Shown here: positions 14,102 to 64,000 of the stretch, in pieces
Layout: the number at the start of each line of letters is the position of its first letter
Numbering within the stretch: position 1 is the stretch's first letter
Source: Sinonovacula constricta
Lineage: Eukaryota > Mollusca > Bivalvia > Cardiida > Solecurtidae
NCBI GenBank assembly: GCA_007844125.1
Contig: CM017572.1
Location: 21,049,934-21,113,933 of the forward strand
DNA: 64,000 bases
Reading direction: 5' to 3'
The notes under the pieces: generated by a model
What the model was told of the DNA's origin: nothing
Seen by the model: only the letters and a program-made list of their open reading frames with translations
Database searches by the model: none
Translations under genes and position numbers: made by a program

Positions 14102-17100
14102 GTGGGTTTTTTTTTTGTATACTTTGGTCTCTTAAGTTTCATATAAATATATTGCATAAACAGTCGGTGTCTGGTCAATTCAGAAACTCTTTATCTTGTA
14201 GAGTTGATGGCAGATATGTTGGGCAGACTTGGCGAGTAAGGCCTAACTAATAAATGTACATTAGAAATAACATTTTATCTCGACTATTGCCAATCGGAAT
14301 ACCTCGAATAATTCACGAATCATCTCTCGGATGTATGTAGGTAGTCGGATCACCTCGGCCATTTCCCTAAATGGGACTACTCTGGTGACAGACATCAAAA
14401 CAAAGCTCGGATGACAGATAATTACAGTACGACGCCTGTAAAACTTTAGTTTATGGCGGCATCAAATTTAAATCATTCAATTTTTAATTTACCCAGTGTA
14501 GCAGACACACAGCTGTCAAACGATGCCATTGTTTATGTTTTGTGCGTACTACATTTAGGCATATTTTTCTTCCGACTTCCGGCGAATAAAACGATCGTGA
14601 TTTCTGTAAGTATTATTGCACCAGATACATCCGAGGGATGATTATTGTCCCGAGACGGAAATACCCGAGGTGTTCCGATTAGACTATTGTTTGAAAGCTT
14701 TTTTCACACACCCGGGTATTGCTGTTTGTTAGTGTAACCAAAGGACTGTATATTGGGACTAGGTCACTCTATCCGGAGGACTGTATATTGGGACTAGGTC
14801 ACTTTATTCGGAGGCCAGTATATTGGGACTAGGTTACTCTATCCGGAGGACTGTATATTGGGACTAGGTCACTCTATCCGGAGGCCAGTATATTATGATT
14901 AGGTCACTCTATCCGGAGGACTGTATATTGGGTCTAGGTCACTCTATCCGGAAGACTGTATATTGGGACTAGGTCACTCTATCCGGAGGACTGTATATTA
15001 GGACTAGGTCACTCTATCCGGAGGACTGTATATTGGGACTAGGTCACTCTATCCGGAGGACTGTATATTAGGACTAGGTCACTCTATCCGGAGGACTGTA
15101 TATTAGGACTAGGTCACTCTATCCGGAGGACTGTATATTGGGACTAGGTCACTCTATCCGGAGGACTGTATATTGGGTCTAGGTCACTCTATCCGGAAGA
15201 CTGTATATTGGGACTAGGTCACTCTATCCGGAGGACTGTATATTAGGACTAGGTCACTCTATCCGGAGGACTGTATATTGGGACTAGGTCACTCTATCCG
15301 GAGGACTGTATATTGGGACTAGGTCACTTTATTCGGAGGCCAGTATATTGGGACTAGGTTACTCTATCCGGAGGACTGTATATTGGGACTAGGTCACTCT
15401 ATCCGGAGGCCAGTATATTATGACTAGGTTATTCTATCCGGAGGACTGTATATTGGGACTAGGTCACTCTATCCGGAGGACTGTATATTAGGACTAGGTC
15501 ACTTTATCCGGAAGACTGTATATTGGGACTAGGTCACTCTATCCGGAGGACTGTATATTGGGACTAGGTCACTTTATCCGGAAGACTGTATATTGGGACT
15601 AGGTCACTTTATCCGGAAGACTGTATATTGGGACTAGGTCACCCTATCCGGAGGACTGTATATTGGGACTAGGTCACTTTATCCGGAAGACTGTATATTG
15701 GGACTAGGTCACTCTATCCGGAGGACTGTATATTAGGACTAGGTCACTCTATCCGGAGGACTGTATATTGGGACTAGGTCACTCTATCCGGAGGACTGTA
15801 TATTGGACTAGGTCACTGTATCCGGCGGATTGTAAATTCGGACAAGGCAGCTGTATCCCGAGGACTGTTAATATACAGGTGGATGTTTCTGGAGGACTGT
15901 ATATTGTGTATCATTATTCAGATCACTTTTGGGGATCAAAACCTAACTGCTGTCAAAAGTCGATCTGGGCTGATATTCGTGGACAAGCAGGGGATATTAC
16001 GAATACCTTCCACAGACGTCCTGAACCAGTTAGAGTTTAATCAGCTGGAAGAGTTATACCACAGGTATCATGATTATATTGATTAAGATGAGATATACCA
16101 GGTATCATGATTATATTGATTAAGATGAGATATACAGCAGGTATCATGATTATATTGATTTAGATGAGATATACAGCAGGTATCATAATTATATTGATTA
16201 AGATGAGATATACAGCAGGTATCATGATTATATTGATTAAGATGAGATATACCACAGGTATCATGATTATATTGATTAAGATGAGATATACAGCAGGTAT
16301 CAGGATTATATTAATTATGATGAGATATACCAGGTATCATGGTTATATTAATTTAAATGAGATATACACCAGGTATCATGGTTATATTAATTTAAATGAG
16401 ATATACACCAGGTATCATGATTATATTAATTTAGATGAGATATACACCAGGTATCATGATTATATTAATTTAGATGAGATATACACCAGGTATCATGATT
16501 ATATTGATTAAGATGAGATATACAGCAGGTATCATGATTATATTAATTTAGATGAGATATACACCAGGTATCATGATTATATTAATTTAGATGAGATATA
16601 CACCAGGTATCATGATTATATTGATTTAAATGAGATATACACCAGGTATCATGATTATATTGATTAAGATGAGATATACAGCAGGTATCATGATTATATT
16701 GATTAAGATGAGATATACAGCAGGTATCATGATTATATTGATTTAGATGAGATATACACCAGGTATCATGGTTATATTAATTTAAATGAGATATACACCA
16801 GGTATCATGATTATATTAATTTAGATGAGATATACACCAGGTATCATGATTATATTAATTTAGATGAGATATACACCAGGTATCATGATTATATTGATTT
16901 AAATGAGATATACACCAGGTATCATGATTATATTGATTTAAATGAGATATACACCAGGTATCATGATTATATTAATTTAGATGAGATGTACCAGGTATCA
17001 TGGTTATATTAATTTAAATGAGATATACACCAGGTATCATGATAATATTAATTATGATGAGATATACCACAGGTATCATGATTATATTAATTATGATGAG

Positions 17101-20100
17101 ATATACACCAGGTATCATGATTATATTAATTTAGCTGAGATATACCACATGTATCATGATTATATAAATTTAGATGAGATATACCACATGTATCATGATT
17201 ATATTAATTTAGATGAGATATACCACATGCATCATGATTATATAAATTTATATTGATTTAAATGAGATATACACCAGGTATCATGATTATATTGATTAAG
17301 ATGAGATATACAGCAGGTATCATGATTATATTGATTAAGATGAGATATACAGCAGGTATCATGATTATATTGATTTAGATGAGATATACACCAGGTATCA
17401 TGGTTATATTAATTTAAATGAGATATACACCAGGTATCATGATTATATTAATTTAGATGAGATATACACCAGGTATCATGATTATATTAATTTAGATGAG
17501 ATATACACCAGGTATCATGATTATATTGATTTAAATGAGATATACACCAGGTATCATGATTATATTGATTTAAATGAGATATACACCAGGTATCATGATT
17601 ATATTAATTTAGATGAGATATACACCAGGTATCATGATTATATTGATTAAGGTGAGATATACCACATGTATCATGATTATATAAATTTAGATGAGATATA
17701 CCACTTGTATCATGATTATATTAATTTAGATGAGATATACCACATGCATCATGATTATATAAATTTATATTGATTTAAATGAGATATACACCAGGTATCA
17801 TGATTATATTGATTAAGATGAGATATACAGCAGGTATCATGATTATATTGATTAAGATGAGATATACAGCAGGTATCATGATTATATTGATTTAGATGAG
17901 ATATACACCAGGTATCATGGTTATATTAATTTAAATGAGATATACCAGGTATCATGATTATATTAATTTATATTAATTAGATGAGATATACACCAGGTAT
18001 CATGATTATATTAATTTAGATGAGATATACACCAGGTATCATGATTATATTGATTTAAATGAGATATACACCAGGTATCATGATTATATTGATTTAAATG
18101 AGATATACACCAGGTATCATGATTATATTAATTTAGATGAGATATACACCAGGTATCATGATTATATTGATTAAGGTGAGATATACCACATGTATCATGA
18201 TTATATAAATTTAGATGAGATATACCACATGTATCATGATTATATAAATTTAGATGAGATATACCACATGCATCATGATTATATTAATTTAGATGAGATA
18301 TACCACATGTATCATAATTATATTAATTAAGCTGAGATATACCACATGCATCATGATTATATAAATTTAGATGAGATATACCACATGTATCATAATTATA
18401 TTAATTAAGCTGAGATATTCCACATGCATCATGATTATATAAATTTAGATGAGATATACCACATGCATCATGATTATATAAATTTAGATGAGATATACCA
18501 CATGCATCATGGTTATATTAATTTAGATTAGATTTACAGCAGGTATCATGATAATATTTATTATGATGAGATATACCACTGGTATCATGATTATATAAAT
18601 TTAGATGAGATATACCACATGCATCATGGTTATATTAATTTAGATTAGATTTACAGCAGGTATCATGATATTATTAATTATGATGAGATATACCACAGGT
18701 ATCATGATTATATTAATTTAGATTAGATTTACAGCAGGTATCATGATAATATTAATTTAGATGAAATATACCACTGGTATCATGATTATATTAATTATGA
18801 TGAGATATACCACATGTATCATGATTATATTAATTTAGATGAGATATACCACAGGTATCATGATTATATTAATTTAGATGAGATATACAGCAGGTATCAT
18901 GATAATATTAATTATGATGAGATATACCACTGGTATCATGATTATATTAATTTAGATGAAATATACCACTGGTATCATGATTATATTAATTTAGATGAGA
19001 TATACACCAGGTATCATGATAATTTTAATTTAGATGAGATATACCACATGTATCATGATAATATTAATTTATATGAGATATACCACATGTATCATAATTA
19101 TATTAATTAAGCTGAGATATACCACATATATCATGATTATATAAATTTAGATGAGATATACCACATGCATCATGCTTAAATTAATTTAGATGAGATATAC
19201 CACATGCATCATGCTTAAATTAATTTAGATGAGATATACCACATGCATTATGATTATATTAATTTAGCTGAGATACACCACATGTATCATGATTATATAA
19301 ATTTAGATGAGATACACCACATGCATCATGCTTAAATTAATTTAGATGAGATATACCACATGCATTATGATTATATTAATTTAGATGAGATATACCACAT
19401 GTATCATGATTATATTAATTTAGATGAGATATACCACAGGTATCATGATTATATTAATTTAGATGAGATATACCACAGGTATCATGATTATATTAATTTA
19501 GATGAGATATACCACATGTATCATGATTATATTAATTTAGATGAGATATACCACAGGTATCATGATTATATTAATTTAGATGAGATATACCACATGCATC
19601 ATGATTATATTAATTTAGATGAGATATACCACAGGTATCATGATTATATTAATTTAGATGAGATATACCACATGTATCATGATTATATTAATTTAGATGA
19701 GATATACCACAGGTATCACGATTATGTTAATTTAGATAAGATTTACAGCAGGTATCATGATTATATTAATTTAGATGAGATATACCACAGGTATCATGAT
19801 TATATTGATTTAGATGAGATATATCACAGGTATCATGATTATATTAATTTAGATGAGATATACCACAGGTATCATGATTATATTAATTTAGATAAGATAT
19901 ACCACTGGTATCATGATTATATTAATTTAGATGAGATATACCACTGGTATCATGATTATAATAATTTAGATGAGATATACACCAGGTATCATGATAATTT
20001 TAATTTAGATGAGATATACCACATGTATCATGATTATATTAATTTAGATGAGATATACCACAGGTATCATGATAATATTAATTTAGATGAGATATACCAC

Positions 20101-23100
20101 TGGTATCATGATTATATTAATTTAGATGAGATATACCACTGGTATCATGATTATAATAATTTAGATGAGATATACACCAGGTATCATGATAATTTTAATT
20201 TAGATGAGATATACACCAGGTATCATGATTATATTAATTTAGATGAGATATACACCAGGTTTCATGATAATATTAATTTAGATGAGATATACCACTGGTA
20301 TCATAATTATATTAATTTAGACGAGATATACCACATGTATCATGCTTGTATTAACTGAGTTTTAGCTAATGCGGAATACCATCATCCTAGTAACTGTTGC
20401 TATTCTTTCATTGCTTCGCTTCAAACCCATCTTTAAGGGAAGTTTAAATTGACAAATATAGTATAATACATAGTATAATACGATATAAAGGAAAGATCAG
20501 ATAGTCAACACTGAAATATGTTGTCATTATCACTTTATTGCTTATGCTTATGGTACGTAGCTCAGTGAGCATCGACAATATTTGAAGTGTAAGTATAGGT
20601 CGGCACCTGATCAATAAGTTGCGTTTTCCATGTACGCGTGATCCGTATCCGTGTCCGTTATCCGTAAAGGGCATTTTACATGCATGCGTTTTCGTCATAC
20701 GTACTTTCTTTTTTATGAGGCTTTCAAGCAGAAAAGATTCTTGAAAGTGATTTAACTTCACTAGTTCTGGAACATTTTTATATAATGAGGTATTCTTATT
20801 GGGATAAAAAAGCAAAGAAGAAGAAAACGTGGCTGTTGTTTTCGACCATTAGTTCCAAAGCTATTACAAACCTCTAATATAGTGATCAATACTTCAGGCT
20901 GATCAAACACCAGTTTGGATTTGCGTTATGTTTTGTTACATATCTTTTATAAGAGAAAAATTGGCATTTTAGTATTTTGAACGATCCGTGTCCCAAAAAC
21001 GTAAAAAATGCTCAATGCGCGATTTAATACTAACTAGGATGACACCCGGATGACGTACGCATACATTAAAATGACCCTTTTTATTTCAAGAAGAGCGATT
21101 CTTTTACTCGACAGACACGGATTGCGGATACGGGTGACGGATGCGGATCACGCGTACAGCCTAAGTTCGAATTACCGCACCTTCTTTCATCTTTCCATTT
21201 CATAGATGTCTTGAAATGGTGCATCTTCGAGACGTCGCGGCATTATGTTAATTTAAGATAAATGCCGACGCATCTAGGTTAACAAAATGACTTTACAAGA
21301 AAAAGGAAATTTTGGATATTGATCATCTTTTATTAAAACCATTATAATTAATAGTTGACATACATATAGTATCGTTATATGTAAAAGCACCTGTATACTC
21401 AACATTTACTGTTTTATAAAATATTTTAAATACAATATACATATACGATATACATATACGATATACAATAACGATATACAATAACGATATTCAATAACGA
21501 TATACAATAACGACATACAATAACGATATACTATAACGATAGACATATACGATAGACATATACGATATACATATACAGTATACAATAACGATATACATAT
21601 ACGATATAAGTATACGATATACATATACGATAAACATATACGATATGCTAATGTTGATTTCTATTTAAAAATGTTGTGTTCATTGCAAATACATTTTTAT
21701 TTAAAATATGATATTTGGACAGGTGCATTATGTTTCTTTTGTCTGTTTGGCGTTTTATGTCTGTGCATTTTAATTCTAAAATAAAGCGCCTTTGTAAAAA
21801 TGTTGATTAAAACCGTTTTTGCCTACTTTACTGTGTATGCCCGTAAAGAAAACAAACAATCATATAAATTAATTGACAAATTTATTCAACAAATACATAC
21901 ATGTAAAGAAACAAACAGGCTTATTGTTCAGAAGATCCAGTCCGAACTGAACGTTATATAAACATGGGTACATATGCAGATACAAACAGTATGTTAACGT
22001 GACGTTTCTTAGTCATTCCAGATGTCAATGCTGATCGGTCAAACATCTCGCTCGGTCGAACTCAAGCGTAGGTCCCTTGGGTGTATGAGCGAAGTTTGAC
22101 TGTACATATACGATATACATAGACTAGTCGTCTTGGATATGTTAATACTAAAATCCTTACTTCTTACACTATATTTAATATGTAGCGATAGTTGCTGCCA
22201 GATCTGCGGTATTGTGTTTATGTATTGTTGATTGCAGTATTCATGTCACATGGTTCCATGATTCGTTTATACACTGTAGATATCTAGAAAATATACAAGT
22301 TCAGTGTAAAAACCAAATGAGGCTTGGGTCCCTGGTTGACGGGGGATATCACGTGTGTATGGATCCAAATGTTGTGTTTTTTGTTTATAATTAAACCGCA
22401 TACCATTTAAAATTGTTAAGGATAAAGTAAAACAACGTGCCTTCCGGAGTCAGTTTGGCCTTTATTTATTTATATATTTATGCATTTATTGTATTGGACT
22501 TTCTTCCTTATTGTAGATATCTAGAGAATATACAAGTTCACTGTAAAAGCCAAATGAGGATGGGGTCCGTGGTTGACGGAGGATACCACGTGTGTATGGA
22601 TCCGAGTGTTAGTCCGTCAAACGACTGTCTGGCATACTCATTCGGGTAAGGGCTTTTTAAATGTTCCTGATCCATATTTTGTATGGTCGTTACACCTCAG
22701 ATAATTCACGGATCTTCTCTTAGATGTGTGGAGGGAATGCCCAGCGAAAATGTACATGCCAATATCTATGGTTCACACCGTAGACAGCAAACACCGTAGA
22801 CAGCTCACACCGTAGACAACACACATCGTACACAGCTCACACCACAGACAGCTCACACCGTAGACAGCACACACCGTAGACAGCTCACACCCTAGACAGC
22901 TCACACCGTACCGTAGAAAGCTCACACCGCAGACAACTCACACCGTAGACAGTTCACAACGTATAAAACTCACACCATATACAGTTCACGCCGTATACAA
23001 GCTCACACCATATACAACTCGGTTAAGGGCTTTTTAACGTAAGATCTAAGCCTGGTGTCAAACTACATGTCTAGTATGTTTGATCAGTCCTTTTTGCTTA

Positions 23101-26100
23101 AGTCCTTGACCACTGATCAATTTCGTGTCCACACACCTCGGAATGTCTTGTCTAGGAGAGCCATTGTTCTGATCCGTACTTCACAGAATGTTTCGTCTGC
23201 CTCTGGTTAACAGTGTATTTTGACAGAGCCTTAGCTTGTCCATACATCTCGGAATGTTTTCACCTTCTATTTTGATGGATATGTAACCAATTAGTACAAT
23301 ATTATAAATAGTTTAGTATATACATGTACTAATATTTTACTTACTGATTATATATATCGCCCCCGGCCGGGCAATCTCATTAAAATCACATCCTAACTTT
23401 CGCTTCATTACTTTCCGCTGGTTAGGATCTGATAACCAGCGGAAAGTAATGAAGCGAAAGTTAGGATGTGATTTGAATGAGATTGCCGGCCGAGTTTAAA
23501 TCAAAGACTTTAAAGTTGGTAGTAGTTGCTTCCCTCCTAACGCTCGGGGCTGAGCGGACAGCTTTACGCATGTCTCGTCGGTGTCAGTATAATGGACCGG
23601 TCGGGTTCAGTCCCTGGGCACGTGTCTCTGTGCTCTGTGCGTCACATAATACAGCCATCTTTTTAAACTTAACATGAACCTAACAAGATGGTCCAAACTG
23701 TCGGATACAATCTTTAATACAATAATGTGATGTTTTATGATATAAAATTATCATTTTAAACGTTTGGGACGATTTTTTTTTTAAAATAATCTGCATTGTG
23801 TTGGTTGGTGTCAAGTTATTATCAACAATCCATGTTGTTTTTCGTTGCCAATGGTGATAATCTTAAAAATTAGTCCGCCATCTTGGTGTTTTGTGTTGTG
23901 AAGAAAAATAAAAAAGAGTAACAAGATCTAGATCAGAATTTAAATATTGACTCACATTTTAAACGTTTACCTTTTTTTTCTGTGTGTTTTTATTCCAGCA
24001 TTCGCCGAGATTTTAGTTTTGACGATGCCCTGTCAAACACTTTCGGATGTGAGGTCCATAGTTTTGACCCAGGGTAAGTGTGACAGACGTTTGTATATAT
24101 TCTACCGATACACTTTAATTAATTAATAATTAAGAATAAGGCAGTTATAATCCGTCCAGAAGAGTTTACGATTTTTTTTTCAGTAAAAAAATGTAATTTT
24201 TTATATTTTTATTTTTCGTCATCTTTTCACGACTTCTCTTCACAGATTACTTGGAAGTTAATCTGCATAAATTGCACTCTATTGTACAACATATCCAGTT
24301 ATTACAATTTATAAAAGGCGTTTGGTTAATGATTGTCTCTATAAACAGATACCATTGCATAGGGTGTTTATTTTTGTGCTTTAAAAGGTTTTATCCGACA
24401 GTGTGCCTACATCTTATATATGTAACAATATCTGTAAATAAGAACGATTGGGACTCCTGCTGAAAATAGAAATAGACCTCACAGCGGATTACGTGGATGA
24501 ACTAAAACATTAGTAGTCACATGGTTATCTTGGTTTAAAAATAACTTACTACGCAGCGTGGCTCAGATAGGAAATACATTTTTATGACGATTGTGGCGTA
24601 ATGGTTCACTTTTACCACAGGTGTAGGAGGGCATCAATAAATAGCATTTTACGAGATCTGCTCAGATAACAATGGTTTACTAAGACGTATATTGAAAATA
24701 ATTTTGGTTCAAACTGTCGGCTACCACCTTTAATATAAAAAGAACTGTATAGTTAAAATATAAAACATTAAAATTCAAGCCTCGGTCGCTCGAACACTGG
24801 ATCGGTAGAATTACCCGGTCTCTTTAGTTTGCCTTCTTTGTTCTATATGAAAAACATGCGGTCGCTAGTACCACCTGTAGTTCGAACAGAAATATTAATA
24901 TATACAACGCATTTATGTCCTAATCAGTGTATGCCAAAAGAAACTATGTTATATAAGTATATATTAAGTTTGCGAAGAACATTTAAAAGGTGAGCCAAGT
25001 GTAAAAGTATTTGAAAGTAATAAATGATGGACGGTTTAACTTATTCAACGGTAATATTGTTATTTATTTGATCCAATAATTATTTCACGTTCGTATTAAG
25101 TTTGCATAGATTGTGTACACTCCATTATACTTAAAAATATAATTGACCAATCAAATTATTTAAATATGGAATAGGAACTTGTATGGTCGCGTGTTTTAAT
25201 TGTTTCAAAGATATTCAAGGAATGTAAGGTCGAGTAGTTCAGAAATGGTCAAAGAATGTACGGTCGCATGATGTTCAAAGAACGACGGTCGCATGATGTT
25301 CAAAGAATGTACGGTCGCATGATGTTCAAAGAATGTACGGTCGCATGATGTTTAAAGAATGTAGAGTCGCGTGTTTTTATTGTTTCAGAGATGGTCTATG
25401 AATGTACGGTCGCGTTATGGTCGAAGAACGTACGGTCGCGTGATGTTCAAAGAATGTACGATTGCGTGTTTTTATTGTTTCAGAGATGGACAAAGAATTA
25501 CGGTCGCGTGATGGTCAAAGAATGTACAGTCGCGTGATGGTCAAAGAATGTATGGTCGCGTTTTTTTTTTGTTTGTTTCAGAGATGGTCAAAGAATGTAC
25601 TGTCGCGTGTTTTTGCTGTTTCAGAGATCGTCAAAGAATGTACAGTCGCGTGTTTTTGCTGTTTCAGAGATGGTCAAAGAATGTACGGTCGCGTGTTTTT
25701 GCTGTTTCAGAGATCGTCAAAGAATGTACAGTCGAGTGTTTTTGCTGTTTCAGAGATGGTCAAAGAATGTACGGTCGCGTGTTTTTGCTGTTTCAGAGAT
25801 GGTCAAAGAATGTACGGTCGCGTGGTTTTGCTGTTTCAGAGATCGTCAAAGAATGTACAGTCGCGTGTTTTTGCTGTTTCAGAGATGGTCAATTAATGTA
25901 CGATCGCGTGTTTTTATTGTTTCAGAGATGGTCAACAAGAACATCAACATGCGGAGAAGGTCTTCTTCCATCCAATCGGAATCGGTGGTAAGGACGAAAT
26001 GGCCGAAATAGTTCCTGGGCAAAGCTGGGCAATAAAAACACTCAGAACTATCCAAACTGATCTTGGACATTCAAAGGTACGATAAACTTACCAAATGGTC

Positions 26101-29100: not shown

Positions 29101-29448
29101 GTATTGTAATATAATGTCTATATTTAAGCGTCGGTTGGAGGTAGTGAAGATAGACACAGAGGGTGCCGAATGGGGGGCTTTGCTACAAATGCTTGACGAC
29201 GGCATTCTATCACAGGTGAAGCAGCTCATCTTGGAGATACATTCCTTTATCTCGGGGGTAGATTTGTAACATCCCACCGAACAAAAGAGCTCTACATCCA
29301 TGATGTGGGATTGTTCCGCAAACTATACGACCAAGGCTTCCGGATATTTTTCTTCCGCAGTTATACCTTCCGAAATTGCATATACGAAAGTGAGGATGGA
29401 ACGCAAAGAACCGGATGTCATGAAGTCCACTTTATGAAAGAAGGTTGA
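13994..29448 (+). CDS. METTL24-like: METTL24-like methyltransferase, six coding exons
   Basis: Spliced gene assembled from exons 13994-14101, 15922-16064, 22517-22645, 23999-24073, 25926-26076 and 29129-29448. Donor and acceptor phases agree at every junction (0, 2, 2, 2, 0). The product would be ~310 residues, against ~366 for human METTL24 as I recall. Residues ~10-25 form a signal-anchor, suggesting a type II membrane or secretory-pathway protein. Family hallmarks follow in order: DGGYHVCMDP, LAYSFGIRRDFSFDDAL, GCEVHSFDPG, VVKIDTEGAEW and KQLILEIHSF. These build an S-adenosylmethionine-binding fold; the substrate of this family is not established. Exon 6 has a frameshift (see that exon), so the copy may be inactive or the sequence may contain an error. 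Introns 1, 2 and 4 carry tandem arrays abutting the exons, two of them repeating the splice junction itself. No upstream promoter exon is proven. Confidence 0.75.
14741..15912 (+). repeat. 35-bp minisatellite in intron 1, ~33 copies
   Basis: Unit landmarks are GGAGGACTGTATATTGGGAC, then TAGGTCACTCTATCC. The array runs almost to the exon 2 acceptor: the last degenerate unit, GGAGGACTGTATATTG, lies at ~15891-15906, about 15 bp before the AG at 15920-15921. Each unit contains CTAG|GTCACT, an AG|GT core. Blocks of several units are duplicated (for example 14920-15060 and 15160-15300). Confidence 0.95.
15922..16064 (+). CDS. METTL24-like: METTL24-like exon 2 (luminal stem region)
   Basis: Starts in phase 0 after CATTATTCAG and ends in phase 2 at TACCACAG|GTATCA. 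Its 47 codons plus two bases join exon 3 to give ...EELYHR|YLENIQVHC, which fits the family. The exon has minisatellites on both sides: the 35-bp array ends ~10-15 bp before it, and the 39-bp array begins within its last ~14 bases. Reading on past the donor meets TAA at 16084-16086. Confidence 0.7.
16051..20357 (+). repeat. 39-bp minisatellite in intron 2 derived from the exon 2 donor junction, ~110 copies
   Basis: The unit is GAGATATACCACAG, then GTATCATGATTATATT, then a variable AATTTAGAT. The first 27 bases match the exon 2 end plus intron start (GAGTTATACCACAG|GTATCATGATTATATT), so most copies carry an authentic-looking 5' splice site; some variants (ACATGTATC, ACTGGTATC) have lost the AG before GT. 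Because 39 is a multiple of three, long ORFs arise (up to 332 codons at 19360-20358, repeated DEIYHRYHDYINL). Larger duplicated blocks are visible (~17240 and ~17757 share an odd junction). Confidence 0.95.
20631..21158. mobile_element. putative MITE with long imperfect inverted ends
   Basis: The left end reads TGTACGCGTGATCCGTATCC and the reverse complement of the right end reads TGTACGCGTGATCCGCATCC. Each is followed by further ATCCGT-type repeats. The element is ~530 bp with no coding capacity. It is consistent with a foldback or MITE-type element inserted in intron 2. The minus-strand ORF overlapping its left end is not supported as a gene. Confidence 0.5.
21428..21650 (+). repeat. 13-bp tandem repeat (CGATATACAATAA / CGATATACATATA)
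   Basis: About 17 imperfect copies of an AT-rich 13-mer alternating two variants. The overlapping minus-strand ORF (repeated IVYVYRI-type peptide) is an artefact of the repeat. Confidence 0.85.
21651..22185. other. intron sequence with a pogo-like end
   Basis: Mostly AT-rich. Near 22096-22107, AGTTTGACTGTA, preceded by GGTCGAACTCAAGCG, resembles the inverted end of a pogo/Tigger element (TA-CAGTCAAAC when read on the minus strand). No second end was found. Confidence 0.3.
22280..22366 (+). pseudogene. duplicated partial copy of METTL24-like exon 3
   Basis: Starts after its own TAG acceptor in the same phase as the true exon 3 and matches 22517-22603 at about nine of ten bases, encoding a YLENIQVQC and DGGYHVCMDP version. 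Homology stops before the donor, and the frame then runs to a TAA at 22392-22394. It could be a dead duplicate or an alternative terminal exon giving a truncated protein; missing the 3' half and donor favours the former. Confidence 0.7.
22517..22645 (+). CDS. METTL24-like: METTL24-like exon 3 (DGGYHVC motif)
   Basis: Acceptor TTATTGTAG, donor TTCGG|GTAAGG; begins with one base completing the exon 2 codon and ends in phase 2. It encodes YLENIQVHC, then the family landmark VVDGGYHVCMDP and CLAYSF, leading into the SAM-binding strand. A partial duplicate lies 237 bp upstream. Confidence 0.8.
22772..23018 (+). repeat. 15-bp tandem repeat (CTCACACCGTAGACA)
   Basis: About 16 degenerate copies in intron 3, decaying toward CACCATATACAA at the right end. 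Confidence 0.85.
23364..23492. repeat. near-perfect ~60-bp hairpin
   Basis: Arms 23364-23424 and 23433-23492 are reverse complements except for one extra G and one substitution, separated by an 8-base loop. The right arm runs directly into a SINE family B body that lacks its tRNA head. It could be a foldback element, or a palindrome created when the SINE inserted or recombined. Confidence 0.85.
23493..23645 (+). mobile_element. SINE family B body without tRNA head
   Basis: Matches the body of 11543-11770: AAAGACTTTAAAGT, TCCTAACGCTCGGGGCT, GGTGTCAGTATAATGGACCG, and GGGTTCAGTCCCTGGGCAC. The head is replaced by the hairpin at 23364-23492. The short ORF here is a shadow. Confidence 0.7.
23686..23715 (+). 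mobile_element. terminal fragment of the ~310-bp dispersed element
   Basis: Only the last ~25 bp (GGTCCAAACTGTCGGATACAA) of the element represented at 13310-13630 is recognisable. Confidence 0.45.
23999..24073 (+). CDS. METTL24-like: METTL24-like exon 4 (SAM-binding strand)
   Basis: 75-bp exon with a long pyrimidine-rich acceptor (TTTTTATTCCAG) and a consensus donor (CAGG|GTAAGT). It encodes IRRDFSFDDAL, then GCEVHSFDP. With the preceding SFG this covers the acidic and glycine-containing part of the SAM-binding core typical of METTL24 proteins. Phase 2 at both ends. Confidence 0.85.
24415..24735 (+). mobile_element. ~310-bp dispersed element, copy 2
   Basis: Intron 4 copy of the element at 13310-13630 with the same ordered landmarks, including GCAGCGTGGCTCAGATAGGAA, and the CAAACTGTCGG end. 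Confidence 0.7.
24736..25190. other. intron 4 sequence without recognisable feature
   Basis: AT-rich; the segment at ~24780-24830 (CGGTCGCTCGAACACTGG) resembles pogo-type subterminal sequence but is not assignable. Confidence 0.3.
25191..25925 (+). repeat. 43-bp minisatellite in intron 4 containing the exon 5 acceptor
   Basis: Regular from ~25577: unit TGTTTCAG|AGATGGTCAA, then AGAATGTACGGTCGCGTG, then TTTTTGC. Acceptor AGs fall at 25580, 25623, 25666, 25709, 25752, 25795, 25838 and 25881; the true exon 5 AG is at 25924. Shorter degenerate units (AAGAATGTACGGTCGC) extend left to ~25191, with two more TTTCAGAGATGG near 25380 and 25480. As 43 is not a multiple of three, all three frames open into the same 43-residue repeat; those ORFs are not genes. 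Confidence 0.95.
25926..26076 (+). CDS. METTL24-like: METTL24-like exon 5
   Basis: Joins exon 4 in frame (FDPG|DGQQEHQHAEKV) and ends in phase 0 at TCAAAG|GTACGA. It encodes 50 residues including VFFHPIGIGG, SWAIKTLR and DLGHSK, matching the mid-domain of METTL24. The exon's first bases (AGATGGTCAA) are the same as those in each preceding 43-bp unit. In the exon's frame the nearest upstream unit carries a TAA at 25894-25896. Confidence 0.85.
26124..26432 (-). mobile_element. SINE family A copy
   Basis: Minus-strand copy in intron 5; tail complement at the left, tRNA-like head complement (GCGGCCCGGGATCAAACCCGG to CTAACAGGTCCG) at the right with a few bases of the head lost. Short AGAAAGT repeats flank it (near 26129 and 26437), a possible target duplication. 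Confidence 0.75.
26433..26860. other. intron 5 sequence without recognisable feature
   Basis: AT-rich; nothing supported. Confidence 0.35.
26861..27245 (-). mobile_element. degenerate LINE reverse transcriptase fragment
   Basis: Minus-strand translation across several frames gives RT landmarks in order: LPDNQFGFRKGPSTVDHF, then VAILDL, and then FGVKQGDTISPLL. Frameshifts and stops separate them, and the YADD region is absent. A dead non-LTR retrotransposon fragment in intron 5. Confidence 0.6.
27246..27690. other. intron 5 sequence without recognisable feature
   Basis: No ORF with family resemblance; probably flank of the LINE fragment. Confidence 0.3.
27690..28410. mobile_element. foldback-type element with 22-bp repeats in both arms
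   Basis: The left arm (~27715-28055) is ~15 copies of GCAGCCTAGCAGCCTGAAGT-TG. The right arm (~28300-28395) has the same unit inverted (CTAGGCTGC, CAACTTCAGGCTG). Outside the repeats, the left CGCTGTCGAAAGTCCCTGAAG matches the reverse complement of the right CTTCACGGACATCGCTGTCG imperfectly. This looks like one element with terminal inverted repeats that contain expanding minisatellites. Confidence 0.6.
28690..28984 (+). mobile_element. ~310-bp dispersed element, copy 3
   Basis: Same ordered landmarks as 13310-13630, including GATGAGCTAAAACAT-type, CAATAAACAGCATTT, and CCAAACTGTCGGATACC. It ends ~145 bp upstream of the exon 6 acceptor. Confidence 0.7.
29129..29448 (+). CDS. METTL24-like: METTL24-like exon 6 (last coding exon, frameshifted)
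   Basis: Begins in phase 0 after CTATATTTAAG and encodes RRLEVVKIDTEGAEW, then KQLILEIHSF, the acidic motif region of the family. The frame hits TAA at 29267-29269. The C-terminal part continues in another frame from ~29266 to a TGA at 29446-29448: TKELYIHDVGLFRKLYDQGF, then FRNCIY and GCHEVHFMK, all family-like. A one-base deletion in the T run near 29263-29265 would explain this. The intron alternative would be only ~36 bp and is unlikely. Either a pseudogenising mutation or a consensus error. Confidence 0.75.
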
Positions 29449-30584: not shown

Positions 30585-32560
30585 TTTGAAATAAACCAGA
30601 AAATGATCCAAAATCTTACAGACCAATAACATCCCATGCGGGGAAATTGTTCGATGTGATTGTCAATGCACGTTTAGAACATTTACTAGAATCCAAGAAT
30701 ATTATAAATCCTTTTCAATCTGGATTGAGAAAAGGACGGAGCACATTAGACCAGCTCGCAAGGCTGCAACATGACATAGTCTATGCTAGGAACAGGCGAA
30801 TATATGTTGCGGCCATTTTTTTCGACCTGCAAGCCGCTTTTGACCTTACATGACATGCAGGCGTTCTCTCGAAACTTAAAGACCATGGAATAACCGGCAA
30901 CTGTTTTAGAGACCTGAGAGCTTTCTTAAGTGATAGGAAAATACGGGTTAAGGTAGGGGATACACTATCTCATCGTGAGACCCTAAGTAGGGGTACCCCA
31001 CAGGGCTCAATACTCTCCCCACTACTGTTCTCTCTCCTCATTAATGACCTTCCTAGCAGTGTCGAGGGGACAGGTCTGGTAGTGAGCCAATTTGCTGATG
31101 ATTCGAGCGTCCGGCTATCTGGATCCTCGTTAAAACCGATCAGAAAGAAAGCCCAGAGCAGATTGGATGCCATCTGGGAGTTGTCAAAAACATGGGGATA
31201 TAAAATATCTCAAAGTAAAACAGTAGGCATACTTTTTGGTCTTAAACCAAAATGGATTTGGACGTATATTTAGGCGGGGAAAAGGTAAATTTTAGAGATA
31301 AGGTGAAATTTCTGGGGATGACTCTTGATAGGAGGTTATCATTCAAAAGTCATATACAAGACATTGTGAATAGATGTCAGAGAGACTTGAACTTAATGAG
31401 AATGTTAAAAGGGACTGATTTTGGTTCAGATAAACACAGTCTCCTGTTACTCTACAAGTCTCTCATACGTCCGAAAATAGACTACGGCTGTCAAATTTCT
31501 GTCAAATCTATTCCATCGCAGCCAAAACAAACCTCAAAAAATTAGACTGCCTACAAAACCAGGCTCTCAGGATCGCACTAGGAGCCCCGAAATCCACACC
31601 CATTATAATTTTAGAACAAGGAAGCCGGTGTACCTCCCCTGGACCTGCGGAGGGATGACCAGTCTGTCAGATACTGGGCCAGGGCCCGCACCAAACCAGA
31701 CAACCCTGTGAACAAAATCCTCGGCACCGGGTATTTTTACAAAACTCCCAGGAAGGGATCAATAAATACACCCTCTCTCCCATTTGGGGCCCATGCCCAA
31801 AATTTAGTGGAAGAATGCGGTGTCGATGATTGCGGATAGCAGAATTTGGTCCTTCCAAAGTTGAACCGTGGACCCTGACAAAGCCCGAGATCGACCTAGG
31901 TTTAACTAAACTGTTCAATAAAAATGACTGTTCGAATAAGATCAAAGGGATGACAGTGGAGCATTTGGACATTAAATACAAAATTTGGGTTAAAATATAC
32001 ACAGATGGAAGTAAAGATCCTCAAAGTGGTAGGGTGGACTCCGCATTCTGTATTCCATCTTAAGAAATATATTTTCGGAAAGAATTACGAACAAAGCTTC
32101 CATCTACACTGCGGAGATGAATGCCATCTTACAATCCTTGAGCTTGATAAAAGAACAAGAAAGAACAAGATCTGTCATACTTTCGGACTTTTAGGCTCCT
32201 TAACATCAATAGAAAACAATAATAGCAGATCTAGACCTGACCTCCTCAATCAAATCCAAATCCTAGTTAACCAGTGTATGGAGTAAGGTCATATAGTTAC
32301 CTTAACATGGTGTCCAGCGCACGTAGGGATCACCTCTTGCGGGACCAAGCATGACGACAACCATCTACTGCTACAATGCAATGATCACAAGGGGGAGAGG
32401 ATGATTTTAGAACAAACTTTACTTTCGGAAAACTTGGCTTTTACTAAGGCTTACATCCTCTACCCACCAAAAAAATTAGAAACCACCATCTTTACAGCTC
32501 TGGGTGATTTCTTACACAACACTAAGATGTCGACAAAGATTTAAAAAAAATGATGAACTA
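30585..32560 (+). mobile_element. 5'-truncated LINE: reverse transcriptase with RNase H remnant
   Basis: RT landmarks appear in order across broken frames: SYRPITSHAGKLFD, NPFQSGLRKGRSTLDQL, IFFDLQAAFD, SRGTPQGSILSPLLF, QFADDSSVRL (the FADD catalytic motif) and FLGMTLDRRLSF. IYTDGSKDPQSG then marks an RNase H start. RT plus RNase H suggests an I/Jockey-group non-LTR element. A stop at ~30851 and several frameshifts make it dead. The endonuclease region is missing. Confidence 0.8.
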
Positions 32561-41964: not shown

Positions 41965-44900
41965 GGATTATGTTGTGTTGCCTATTTTGAATTGATATTG
42001 TTGGGTGTTTCTTGCTCCAAGTATTTGGACTTTAGTTTTGGAAATGTTTGCATTTAATTTCCAGTCATCACATTAGTCAATGAAATCATTGATACATTTT
42101 TGAAGTGAAGTGGCATCTTCAGCCAATAATATTGTATCATCAGCATAGAGCAAGATAAGTATTTTAAAGTTGGCAGCACAGTATTTGATATATTGATGAA
42201 ATTGATTCCGTTATATGAATTACTTGCAAGAGCATCTTCCAGGTCATTAGGAAAAAGAGTGAAAAGCACAGGTGACAGGTTTTCGCCTTGTCTCACGCCT
42301 ATTAAGCAGTCAAAGAAGGCAGATCTGTTAGGAGTGGTTTGAGCACCAGATGCAATATTGTATGGTGTTTGGTTACTCTGTTGTTGAATTTCTGCATCTT
42401 TAATTATATAGTTGTTTAGTGAAATTTGCACACATGATTTGATATTTGAGTACATATTATGAACAACCTTAAAAAACTTTCCACTTATGTTGTTTCTGAG
42501 GAGTTTTTGCCATAACCCGTATCGCCACACAAGAGTCAAATGATTAGAGAAGTCAATATAGCAAGAAAATAATTTCTTTTTAAAATGTTTCAGAATTTCA
42601 ATTATTGAATTTAATGTGAATATATTATCTGTTGTTGAATAATGCTGCCAAAACCCTGCTTGATTTTCATGAAGGATTGCATTTTCTTGAAGGAATTCAT
42701 TTAAAACTGCTGTAAACAGTTTTCCTTCACATGAGAGAAGAGTTATGGGTCTGTAATTAATACCTGGATCTTTGCTATTTCCTTTATTCTTGTATATTGG
42801 AATGATAATGCCTTCTGACCAGTTTGCTGGGATTATTCCAGAGTCTAAAACAGTCTGACATATATAGGCATCATAACTGTCTTGGAGCTTATAATGTATT
42901 CATTTAATATACCATCTATTCCTAGTGATTTGCTATTTTTGAGATTTTTAGTGCATTTGAGTATTTCTTTCTCTGTAAATTGTGAATTGAGTAAGCTATT
43001 GTCATCTATTGTTATATTGTTAATATCAATATTGTTGTCATTGTCATGATAATTAGTATTTAGGTCTTTAAAGTGATTATACAAAGCCGGTAGTTCAGGA
43101 TGTTCTACTGTAGATTTACTTTTAATTCTGTTTAATATTTTCCAGTAGTCTTTGGGCCTTTTGCTATGAAGTGATCTTAATTTCGTTTCATGTTATTTAT
43201 TGTATTTATTTATTTACTTATTCCAGGTTGCTTTATAGGCTTATGTTGCATTTATCATGTTTGTGTTGCTGTATGCACATGGGTGTATGTAATACTGTTT
43301 TCTGGCCTTGTTGTATAATGTTTTGGCCTTTTTGCACTCATGGCCATACCAATTGTGTTTATTGCTGTTAACTGGCTGGTGCCTACTTGTATTAGTGAAT
43401 GATTTGTGGGCGCTATTGTAAAACATTGATGCTAATTTCACTGATATTTCATCCATTAAGGCTTGCGTTGTTTTAACCTCTGCGGCTTGAAGCATGGTCA
43501 AGAGGTCTTGTGTATCAATGTTTTGTACAAAAGTATCTTGTTGTGAATGTTCCCATAGTCTGTTAGTTTGGCTTTTGTTTGGAAGTTTTTTATTTTTGCT
43601 ACTTGTGAGATAATTGATATCACAATGAAGCACTGAGTGACTATCTGAGAACAAGGCATCTAGCTCTTTAATTTCAAAGTTAGCAATTTATTTATAGGCT
43701 TTAATGCTAGCAATGTAATAATCCAGTACAGATGTATGTCTGAATGTAAAATTACTAGAACTATTGTGTTCAAATCTACCATTCACTATAATCAGATTAT
43801 TAATCTTGCATGTGTTAAGTAGTCTGTGGCCATGGATATTAACCTTTCTATCCATTGACTTTCTGTCGAAAGGAATATTATTTTGCTGTAGTAATAACTT
43901 TTGGCCCTAAAGATTCTGGGTATCAAAATCAAGTTCAAACTGGTCAGAAATAAAAGCATCATTCTCAGCATAATCAGGCAGTAATGCTGTCAGGGCATTA
44001 AAGTCTCCACACAAAAACAAATACAGTAAAACCTCTCCACAGCAACATCTGGCGGAGGCACGAAAAAATGTTGCTGCTGAGAGGTGATGCTGCTCAGAGG
44101 TTTCTATGAGACGAGAAAAAATGTGTGTTTTTTTAAATAGTTTTGTACTTTAGGCAATCAGCATTTGCTTGTCTTTTACAAAAACAATATCGTCAGTAAC
44201 GGACCTGTATCTGAGTTTTGCCGCAGCCCAACTCAGTAGCAATAGACTGTGCTGACCTTCCTTGATCTAACAACTTAATCGCAGTAGCACTCTGCTCTAA
44301 CGTAAGGTAAACATGTTTATAAGACATTTCAAGACAAAATGACCACTATTCCAGTATTGAGTCAAGCAAAGACTGATTTACCATTAAAAAATCGAAACAA
44401 TGACAGTTTGCATTTAGCACTTAACGTAAACATCTTTTTAAGTAAGCAATCAATACAGTGATATCTTTTAATCTTTCGTTCAATTAAAGAAAGCAAACCA
44501 ACTCGTTAACATCATCAATAGTTGACACTTCTTTCACACGTTCCCGCAATACCCTAGATCTACAACGGCATGTTTGTAGCAGGCAGCTGGTTTCCCGTCC
44601 AACTACAACTTGATTCCAATTAACACCTTCTCAACAGGGTACAAGCAGTGATCAGCCGACCGCGTGACAATTCTGGTGTACGCGACAGACTGTTCTAAAA
44701 ATAGCTGCACTGGTGTTGCTACGCAGAGGTTAAAGTAGCTGTACTCATAATCACATGACATTCGGCTAATTTCATTTTCAAAGAGGTCATATTCTGCATT
44801 ATTATAAAATCTAGATTTTACCGGGGGCACAAAAGTTACTCCAAACATTGTATCTTGTTTAAAATCTGTTAATGATTTTTTGACTTTAACTCAACTGACA

Positions 44901-48473: not shown

Positions 48474-48593
48474 ATGTTGCGAAACAGCCCAGGACGCATC
48501 ACCAACAAATATGTGGCTATCATCATTGTTGTGTTTATCTGTGCTTCGTTGGCCGTGTTTGTCTTCAACAAACCACAAACGGATGTGAAGGAG
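48474..48593 (+). CDS. first coding exon of a second membrane-anchored (METTL24-like?) gene
   Basis: The acceptor TTTATGTTTACAG ends at 48451. A 22-bp leader precedes the ATG at 48474, and 40 codons run to GAG|GTGAGG in phase 0. The peptide has a basic start (MLRNSPGRITNKY), a hydrophobic helix (VAIIIVVFICASLAVFVF) and a polar tail ending KE. Acceptor-leader-ATG-anchor-KE|GTG in phase 0 matches exon 1 at 13973-14101, so a tandem paralogue is likely. Its other exons must lie beyond the minisatellite and the window end. Confidence 0.5.
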
Positions 48594-48822
48594 GTGAGGT
48601 GATATGTAATGGGAACTTATAACGTATTTCATTTGTAATAGAGGGTTAACGGCCCTTCGCCGATTTTTTGGCAAAAGGTTTCCAACATAGTTGGGTGTTG
48701 GTGCAATATGTTTCCAATACTGTTAACATACAGCGTAAACTTCAAGTCTCATTTTTTATCTGGCATTATATTAATGGTATCTTATTTATAAAGCAATTCA
48801 AAGTTACAATCTTACTACTACC

Positions 48823-51800
48823 CTATCCTGGCACAATAAATACATTACGCCATATTGGCACAATAAATACACTACCCTATCCTGGCACAATACATACACT
48901 ATTCTATCCTGGCACAATAAATACACTATCATATCCTGGCACAATAAATACACTATCCTATCCTGGCACAATAAATACACTATCCTAACCAGGCACAATA
49001 AATACACTATCCTATCCTGGCACAATAAATACACTACACTATCCAGGCACAATAAATACACTACCCAGTCCTGGTACAATAAATACACTATCATATCCTG
49101 GCACAATAAATACACTACACTATCCTGGCACAATAAATACACTATCCTATCCTGGCACAATAAATACACTATTCTATCCTGGCACAATAAATACACTATC
49201 ATATCCTGGCACAATAAAAACACTCCCATATTCTGGCACAATAAATGCACTATTCTATCCTGGCACAATACATACACTATTCTATCCTTGCACAATAAAT
49301 ACACTATTATATCCTGGCACAATAAATACACTATCCTATCCTGGCACAATAAATACACTATCATATCCTGGCACAATAGATACACTATCCTATCATGGCA
49401 CAATAAATACAATATTCTATCCTGGCACAATAAATACACTACCATATCCTGGCACAATAAATTCACTACCCTGTCCTGGCACAATAAATACACTATCCTA
49501 TCCTGGCACAATAAATACACTATTCTATCCTGGCACAATAAATACTCTACCCTGTCCTGGTACAATAAATACACTATCCTATCATGGCACAATAAATACA
49601 ATATTCTATCCTGGCACAATAAATACACTACCATATCCTGGCACAATAAATTCACTACCCTGTCCTGGCACAATAAATACACTACCATATCCTGGCACAA
49701 TAAATTCACTACCCTGTCCTGGCACAATAAATACACTATCCTATCCTGGCACAATAAATACACTATTCTATCCTGGCACAATAAATACACTATCCTATCA
49801 TGGTACAATAAATACACTACACTATCCTGGCACAATAAATACTCTACCCTGTCCTGGTACAATAAATACACTATCCTATCCTGGCACAATAAATACACTA
49901 CACTATCCTGGTACAATAAATACACTGTCCTATCCTGGCACAATAAATACACTACACTATCCTGGCACAATAAATACTCTACCCTGTCCTGGCACAATAA
50001 ATACACTATCCTATCCTGGCACAATAAATACACTATTCTATCCTGGCACAATAAATACATTACACTATCCTGGCACAATAAATTCACTACCCTGTCCTGG
50101 CACAATAAATACTCTACCCTGTCCTGGTACAATAAATACACTATCCTATCATGGCACAATAAATACACTATCCTATCATGGCACAATAAATACACTGTCC
50201 TATCCTGGTACAATAAATACACTATCCTATCATGGCACAATAAATACTCTACCCTGTCCTGGCACAATAAATACACTGTCCTATCCTGGTACAATAAATA
50301 CACTATCCTATCATGGCACAATAAATACACTGTCCTATCATGGCACAATAAATACACTATCATATCATGGCACAATAAATACACTATCATATCCTGGTAC
50401 AATAAATACACTATCCTATCCTGGCACAATAAATACTCTACCCTGTCCTGGCACAATAAATACTCTACCCTGTCCTGGCACAATAAATACTCTACCCTGT
50501 CCTGGTACAATAAATACACTATCCTATCATGGCACAATAAATACACTATCCTATCCTGGCGCAATAAATACACTGTCCTATCCTGGTACATTAAATACAC
50601 TATCCTATCATGGCACAATAAATACACTATCCTATCATGGCACAATAAATACACTGTCCTATCCTGGTACAATAAATACACTATCCTATCATGGCACAAT
50701 AAATACACTATCCTATCATGGCACAATAAATACACTATCCTATCCTGGCGCAATAAATACACTGTCCTATCCTGGTACAATAAATACACTATCCTATCAT
50801 GGCACAATAAATACACTGTCCTATCATGGTACAATAAATACACTATCCTATCATGGCACAATAAATACACTATCCTATCATGGCACAATAAATACACTGT
50901 CCTATCATGGTACAATAAATACACTATCCTATCATGGCACAATAAATACACTGTCCTATCCTGGTACAATAAATACACTATCCTATCATGGCACAATAAA
51001 TACACTATCCTATCATGGCACAATAAATACTCTACCCTGTCCTGGTACAATAAATACTCTACCCTGTCCTGGCACAATAAATACACTATCCTATCATGGC
51101 ACAATAAATACACTGTCCTATCATGGTACAATAAATACACTATCCTATCCTGGTACAATAAATACACTATCCTATCATGGCACAATAAATACTCTACCCT
51201 GTCCTGGTACAATAAATACTCCACCCTGTCCAGGTACAATAAATACACTATCCTATCCTGGCGCAATAAATACACTACACTATCCTGGTACAATAAATAC
51301 ACTGTCCTATCCTGGCACAATAAATACACTATTCTATCCTGGCACAATAAATACACTATCATATCCTGGCACAATAAATACACTCCCATATCCAGGCATA
51401 ATAAATACACTATTATATCCTGGCACAATACATACACTATTCTATCCTGGCGCAATAAATACACTATTCTATCCTGGCACAATAAATACACTATCCTATC
51501 ATGGCACAATAAATACACTATCATATCCTGGCACAATAAATACACTACCGTATCCAGGCACAATAAATACTCTACCCTGTCCAGGTACAATAAATACAAT
51601 ATCCTATCCTGGCGCAATAAATACACTACACTATCCTGGCACAATAAATACACTATCCTATCCTGGCACAATAAATACACTACACTATCCTGGCACAATA
51701 AATACACTGTCCTATCCTGGCACAATAAATACACTATTCTATCCTGGCACAATAAATACACTATCATATCCTGGCACAATAAATACACTCCCATATCCAG

Positions 51801-63800: not shown

Positions 63801-64000
63801 ATAAATACACTATCCTATCATGGCACAATAAATACACTGTCCTATCATGGTACAATAAATACACTATCCTATCATGGCACAATAAATACACTATCCTATC
63901 ATGGCACAATAAATACACTGTCCTATCCTGGTACAATAAATACACTATCCTATCATGACACAATAAATACACTATCCTATCCTGGTACAATAAATACACT
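48823..64000 (+). repeat. giant 27-bp minisatellite, ~560 copies, runs off the window
   Basis: Consensus unit TATCCTGGCACAATAAATAC, then ACTATCC; common variants are TATCATGGCAC, CTGTCCTGGTAC, TTCTATCC, and CACAATTAATAC. Every standard unit has AATAAA on the + strand. It begins ~230 bp after the donor at 48593, so it would be intronic. With a unit of nine codons, two + frames (NKYTILSWH and TINTLSYPG) and one - frame (CQDRIVYLL) stay open for hundreds of codons; no coding claim is made. Higher-order structure is given separately. Confidence 0.98.
53157..63559 (+). repeat. ~5.2-kb higher-order repeat of the 27-bp array
   Basis: The rare variant CAATTAGTACAC occurs at 53153, 56122, 58375, 61316 and 63556. 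The intervals alternate 2969, 2253, 2941 and 2240, giving a 5.2-kb composite period of two sub-blocks. Long stretches (for example from 53157, 58379 and 63560) are nearly identical in unit order. The third composite unit is cut by the window end. Confidence 0.85.

Follow-up and report, generated by a model that had tools for sequence, protein, structure and literature searches.

The 64,000-nucleotide stretch of the genome of the bivalve Sinonovacula constricta analysed here (the window, C18:21049934-21113933 of a 1.22-Gb, 177-contig assembly, whose own numbering is used below) carries a METTL24-like gene in which a 39-bp tandem array of about 110 units spans the donor junction of exon 2 and continues into intron 2. 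The array is, with good confidence, best interpreted as a junction minisatellite of the type known as mirages in lancelets, which arose from the old exon 2 donor and grew partly through multi-unit duplications in a minisatellite-rich genome, its numerous decoy donors being probably tolerated by virtue of exon definition.

Anatomy of the array at the exon 2 donor

Tandem Repeats Finder (TRF) delimits the array at 16051-20354 (+) with 109.8 copies, while wrap-around alignment resolves 110 units in 16051-20360, of which the final one is degenerate and reaches ~20360. This agrees with the first-pass annotation of the window, which had described a ~110-copy 39-bp array beginning inside exon 2 and had correctly placed the end of this exon at 16064, the first decoy donor at ~16101 and, between them, an in-frame TAA (16084-16086). 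Unit 1 reads GAGTTATACCACAG/GTATCATGATTATATTGATTAAGAT, joining the final 14 nt of exon 2 to the initial 25 nt of intron 2 (GT and a further 23), and thus straddles the exon-intron boundary in the manner of mirage units. It departs from the consensus used at 3 of 39 columns; in its exonic part 13 of 14 nt match (P for at least 13 from base composition alone = 8.6e-8), and the T at column 4, a single site, is found in unit 1 only (1/110 units). A 23-nt core pattern with up to three mismatches yielded 100 matches in the window, all within 16057-20351, and none in shuffles. The unit might also continue farther upstream within exon 2, where 8/15 nt before 16051 fit the consensus; this fit is equalled by 3 of 411 exonic 39-mers (itself included), and the continuation was treated as suggestive and not used.

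The presumed authentic donor of intron 2, CAG/GTATCA (16062-16070, +), is indicated by its phase-compatible join to exon 3, which gives ELYHR/YLENIQ as in homologues, and by the presence of an intron at the same place in paralogues. Its 9-mer recurs such that 68 of the 110 units carry it exactly, giving 67 decoys, which lowers the earlier estimate of roughly a hundred. As in mirages, the AG/GT is present in many though not all units (69/110); the GT is kept in 95 and lost in 15. Intact donors are found in all of units 1-28 and in 40 of the remaining 82. The first decoy AG ends at 16101 (site 16101/16102), and the TAA read in the sequence at 16084-16086 (+) lies between the presumed true donor and this decoy. 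The lengths that the 67 decoys would add are distributed over the three frames as 30, 21 and 16, and the TAA is included in every case. The suggestion that each unit could serve as both acceptor and donor is not supported, the stretch before the AG being on average 40% pyrimidine against 59-76% for the five acceptors of the gene; the predicted exon 3 acceptor of the paralogue L056, at only 41% pyrimidine, counts against doubting the units as acceptors on this ground.

The exon end predates the array

In a comparison with homologous proteins, 23 of the 28 homologues were aligned with the query, 22 of which cover the end of exon 2; [YF]H is present there in 19/22 and [YF]HR in 10/22. The exon 2 ends of paralogues in the same genome (L056, L064, L073, L074 and L075) encode E-L-Y-(H/Q/D)-R and end in phase 2 in all five cases, and no array crosses any of these five ends. 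Their donors begin with GT in three instances and apparently with GC in two (L074, L075). The conservation of the exon end in homologues, together with its array-free state in the paralogues, indicates that the exon end preceded the array and that the array was built from it. Searching the 1.22-Gb assembly with a two-unit query gave 51 scored matches, all inside the exon 2 array; as this search scores best candidates only and skips common words, it is strong rather than absolute evidence that the unit is not a dispersed satellite. The earlier proposal that the array was made from a pre-existing splice junction is thus upheld by the homologues, by the five paralogues and by the restriction of unit matches to this place. 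A foreign satellite or mobile array that inserted into the intron and brought the exon end or the donor with it could be envisaged in a genome in which minisatellites are abundant; yet the ancestry of the exon end in homologues and paralogues, the 13/14 match of the exonic nucleotides and the want of a unit match elsewhere among the best candidates make such an origin extremely improbable.

A phase-2 intron interrupts the same Arg codon at no fewer than six paralogue exon 3 starts (at least L055, L058, L059, L062, L064 and L076) and at the five exon 2 ends. Intron 2 is 6452 nt long, which is not a multiple of 39, and its acceptor at 22516 lies 2.16 kb past the array end (20354). In intron gain by tandem duplication the intron is lacking in the relatives of the gene, whereas the paralogues share this position; likewise, intron 2 does not have both splice sites in the repeat or a length that is a multiple of the unit, as do introns of the UBC type (see below). 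The shared position in paralogues and the acceptor outside the array lead us to reject both the birth of intron 2 from the array and its assignment to the UBC-type dual-specific class. The intron-birth alternative, to which the first-pass annotation had pointed, holds that uninterrupted coding sequence around an AGGT was duplicated and that intron 2 is the interval between the copies. It was taken seriously on account of a likeness between the starts of intron 2 and exon 3, whose first 19 nt show 11 matches in the in-frame register only (reached in 1/39 registers, at 1/150 other AGGT sites and at 0.8% of intron positions), and was dropped once the paralogues showed the same intron. The likeness was noticed post hoc and is not believed, longer stretches being weaker (28 nt: 7/39 registers). 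Further, of the 14 nt preceding the intron 2 acceptor, only 4 agree with the exon 2 end. With the same codon and phase in the paralogues, this alternative is largely refuted, and we regard it as very unlikely.

Growth of the array and its possible roles

The array comprises 55 distinct unit sequences. Within units 1-60, identical copies are found most often at lags of 13, 29 and 16, and the longest exact repeats measure 372, 252 and 240 bp at lags of 632, 524 and 517 bp; these lags span 10-30 units. Long exact repeats at lags of many units imply that the expansion involved multi-unit blocks. Hence, of the slippage origin proposed earlier, the junction segment as starting point stands, while simple slippage alone does not account for lags of 10-30 units and exact runs of up to 372 bp, which point to multi-unit duplications as well. 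The unit anatomy, the polarity and the long exact repeats show that a 39-bp segment over the old exon 2 donor was duplicated in tandem and expanded into intron 2 to ~110 units, partly via such multi-unit duplications.

Could the array instead code for protein? The unit equals 13 codons, 83 of 105 ungapped units have no stop in the exon frame, and a 340-codon open frame is present at 19336-20358. Against this, unit 1 itself holds the TAA, and the third codon positions vary least (0.026, compared with 0.103 and 0.097 for the other two), the opposite of coding constraint and an indication that the 3' open frame is not coding; this frame also has no protein match at E<=0.001 among 7999 candidates scored. 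A coding role is accordingly hardly credible. Another alternative is that the array was retained for function, its many donors recruiting U1 and thereby aiding the definition of exon 2 or guarding the transcript from early ending. The intact donor in 28/28 first units as opposed to 40/82 others might be taken to favour this; however, many of the first 28 units are copies of one another, and their intact donors are therefore not independent evidence, while the five paralogue exon 2 donors examined lack such an array. Retention for function appears unlikely, though less so than the preceding alternatives, and we continue to favour a mirage-type array whose decoys are tolerated.

The METTL24-like host gene

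The joined product of exons 2-6 matches Pfam Methyltransf_22 with 84.9 bits (cut-off 22.4). Among the 28 homologues recovered by protein search, 21 carry a source name, all of them mollusc species, the best being that of Mactra antiquata with 51% identity. The closest homologue, P0001, is 83% identical over 98%; it is a 312-aa sequence starting with Met on a 1647-nt contig, which is too short for the introns of the gene, and P0001 is thus read as the spliced message of a relative. Its exon 2-exon 3 join is exactly as predicted here.

Exon 2 (15922-16064, +; phase 2 at its 3' end) is defined by homology to P0001, the homologue alignment, an open frame, an AG acceptor and a GT donor. Exon 3 (22517-22645, +) was located by tblastn of P0001 with 100% identity over 44 aa and by its splice signals; alignment additionally reveals a partial second copy of it at 22274-22373 (+), with 99 bp aligned, which begins at the acceptor (a TGTAG acceptor-like 5' edge). 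Exons 4 (23999-24073, +) and 5 (25926-26076, +) are supported by homology and splice signals, and the last exon, exon 6 (29129-29440, +), by homology, with a frame change inside. With tblastn of P0001, no upstream exon was recovered in the 15.9 kb before exon 2, and none that was convincing in the 19.8 kb beyond the window start. The only genome match that starts at residue 1 is an exon 1-like segment at window positions 48474-48593 (+; C18:21098407), 90% identical over residues 1-41 and 92.5% identical to P0001 over residues 1-40, and no exons 2-6 were found in the 59 kb following it, in which 7750 bases are N. Remnants of reverse transcriptases (Pfam RVT_1) were also observed in the window, at 42054-42899 (-) and 30590-30853 (+).

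Splice-site choice and probable tolerance of decoys

The calculated U1 pairing amounts to -7.2 kcal/mol for the presumed true exon 2 donor and for all 67 decoys alike, so that local strength cannot separate them; the values for the donors of exons 3, 4 and 5 are -10.8, -11.9 and -5.6 kcal/mol. With an exon 2 of 143 nt, an intron 2 of 6452 nt and no upstream exon found nearby, the setting is one of exon definition. In the relevant passages of a minigene study, when two donors of identical strength compete under exon definition the upstream one is exclusively used, and when identical donors are weakened larger exons are skipped (PMC9225289). By analogy, exon 2 would be defined across the exon and the donor nearest the upstream acceptor would be favoured, and it is probably because exon definition favours the exon-proximal donor that the decoys are tolerated. 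Use of a decoy would add at least 37 nt with an in-frame stop, which would leave the message open to decay. Across six junction arrays (exons 2 and 5, and L076, L053, L056 and L035, described below) the site marked as real by homology or open frame is the one nearest to the exon, a pattern that follows partly from how exons were recognised here.

Certain observations weigh against this interpretation. The exon 2 donor, at -7.2 kcal/mol, is not strong, and skipping accompanies weakened donors in the minigene study (PMC9225289). P0001, which reads continuously across the join of exons 2 and 3, is only 83% identical, and its genome may lack the array. The gene itself might be nonfunctional: the frame change in exon 6 falls between tblastn matches that end at 29251 and start at 29257, i.e. 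between two well-conserved stretches, and the exon 1-like match sits 19 kb downstream of exon 6. The METTL24-like gene may thus be rearranged, decayed or mis-assembled, and the exon 1-like match may represent a permuted gene, a lost second copy or a mis-assembly. The anatomy of the array is independent of whether the gene is intact, while its effect on splicing depends on it. Exon 2 is confronted with 67 further donors with an identical 9-mer, and exon 5 with 10 decoy acceptors; should splicing at each use the exon-proximal site alone, these junctions would form a natural display of cross-exon proximity overruling site number.

Further junction arrays in the gene and the genome

A second array of the same gene, detected by TRF and alignment at 25245-25935 (+), has 26/43-bp units and abuts the exon 5 acceptor. 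The 43-bp unit carries the acceptor, with 11 copies of TGTTTCAGAGAT including the presumed true one, and the likeness runs 16 nt into exon 5, so that this array too spans a boundary in the manner of mirages. A 35-bp array (TRF; 14742-15868, +) ends near the exon 2 acceptor. It was considered as a junction array owing to a stray copy within ~15 nt of the acceptor and was set aside, since its exon overlap is not supported (shuffle P 0.31).

Comparable cases are found in paralogous loci. In the METTL24-like paralogue L076 (L076:1-808, minus strand) a 50-bp array lies across the exon 3 donor and reaches the end of the fetched stretch, with 15 in-register copies (up to 4 substitutions) after the presumed true donor. 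L053 has a 65-bp array with seven identical acceptors, TTTCAG/TTTTGTCGAC, the last of which is the presumed true one. At L053/L067 (C15:18368311-18371512, minus strand) a 1281-nt intron divides exon 6, whereas 12 other surveyed exon 6 matches are uninterrupted past residue 270. The formation of this intron from uninterrupted coding sequence was considered and not retained, as the pre-acceptor part of the unit shows no significant resemblance to the end of the exon itself (P 0.16 and 0.17). Two 43-bp copies lie across the exon 3 acceptor at L056:1465-1553. The intron end GAATTACACCACAG of L056 matches the exon 2 end of the window gene at 12/14 positions, and its in-frame reading resembles an exon 2 end.

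Outside the family, a 49-bp array at L035:5638-6301 enters the final exon of a transporter-like gene; counting that of the exon itself, 11 acceptor-like sites are in register. In register, each of the ten units upstream agrees with the first 29 nt of the exon at 16-21 positions. An unconstrained local alignment scores 27 at best, but 1000 shuffles (mean 17.3, maximum 29) include at least one that does as well, and the case thus rests on register and not on score. From its LPETMGG motif we take this exon to be SLC22-type transporter-like; NCBIfam TIGR00898 is matched only at E 0.09, and no match was found in Pfam or the Protein Data Bank. A 27-bp array of ~19 kb occupies window positions 48817-64000 and continues to ~67720 (L031).

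Frequency of junction arrays

The 30 loci in the survey of paralogues, which excludes the four loci of the gene itself, hold 37 exon matches, 27 arrays and 64 junction edges. Arrays were present at 3/64 junction edges; random placement gives a mean of 2.7 (P 0.52) at a tolerance of 0 nt, 3.2 (P 0.66) at 10 nt and 3.8 (P 0.77) at 20 nt. In this null model arrays were allowed up to 50 nt of exon overlap, the edges are the ends of tblastn matches and not proven splice sites, and two L058 exons were merged into a single match. There is thus no enrichment at junctions over chance placement among these 64 edges of one gene family, a sample in which a modest excess would escape notice. In the window itself, 2/11 arrays have an end no more than 20 nt from one of 9 junctions (P 0.012; null mean 0.16) and 3/11 one within 60 nt (P 0.009); for the gene span alone the figures are 2/6 within 20 nt (P 0.029) and 3/6 within 60 nt (P 0.033). 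The 27-bp array was omitted from the window test, and these enrichment figures are biased, as the window was picked for holding such an array.

Thus, junction arrays are recurrent, being found in 3/30 paralogue loci and before one unrelated exon (L035), yet not above the expectation from minisatellite density. As their frequency approximates random placement, there is no need to regard splice junctions as places that especially seed arrays. The exon 2 array arose in a genome very rich in minisatellites, where, to judge from this small survey of one family, the number of arrays crossing an exon edge is about that expected by chance; arrays would form in many places, and those starting at the edge of an exon would persist as long as the exon-proximal site continues to be used. 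A broader generalisation, to which we would give slightly less than even chances, is that the birth of minisatellites in this molluscan genome commonly yields junction arrays as a by-product, at a few percent of junctions and with dozens of identical sites competing at one junction, and that mirages are general among animals and not a lancelet peculiarity. If so, this genome would constitute a natural saturation experiment on splice-site choice.

Relationship to known junction repeats

Minisatellites are on record within introns of other invertebrate genes: the passages concerned describe them in introns of earthworm metallothionein genes (PMC12783039), and in intron 3 of an abalone gene there is a length-variable 27-bp minisatellite, which is not said there to cross a junction (PMC6905558). 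Among the titles and abstract openings of the literature covered, with subscription journals mostly outside its scope, no molluscan junction-spanning minisatellite was found, and the passages of a clam paper that deal with these terms describe none (PMC4732748).

The closest parallels are the lancelet mirages, described in the relevant portions of the reports for Adh3, the globins BflGb6 and BflGb9, troponin C and PGBD5, and reported there without disturbance of splicing (PMC3087553, PMC3902484). Like these, the arrays described here consist of minisatellite-like copies over an exon-intron boundary, on the donor or the acceptor side, with AG/GT in many but not all units, and the unit lengths overlap (10-72 bp given for the Adh3 mirage, 39 bp here). 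Unlike them, they occur in a mollusc; the exon 2 array has ~110 units and 68 exact donors, in contrast to the 3 and 6 units given for two BflGb6 haplotypes; and two multi-copy junction arrays coexist in one gene, known here from the sequence of one assembly.

Internal tandem repeats at boundaries in genes of human segmental duplications, described as averaging 30 bp x 4 units and as associated with altered transcripts and new introns (PMC2812944), are similarly minisatellites across exon-intron boundaries, but the intron in the present case is old. In the dual-specific arrays of UBC and VCX3A, as characterised in the pertinent sections, the repeat contains both ends of the intron, whose length is a whole number of units (PMC10809524); the AGGT core in each unit is shared with the exon 2 array, whose acceptor in contrast lies outside. 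The tandem genomic duplication model of intron gain, as outlined in a review (PMC3443670), likewise involves an AGGT-bearing tandem segment, whereas here the junction existed before the duplication. The exon 2 array shows that junction arrays can arise without creating a new intron, and with it junction-spanning minisatellites, described in lancelets and in duplicated genes of humans, are extended to molluscs.

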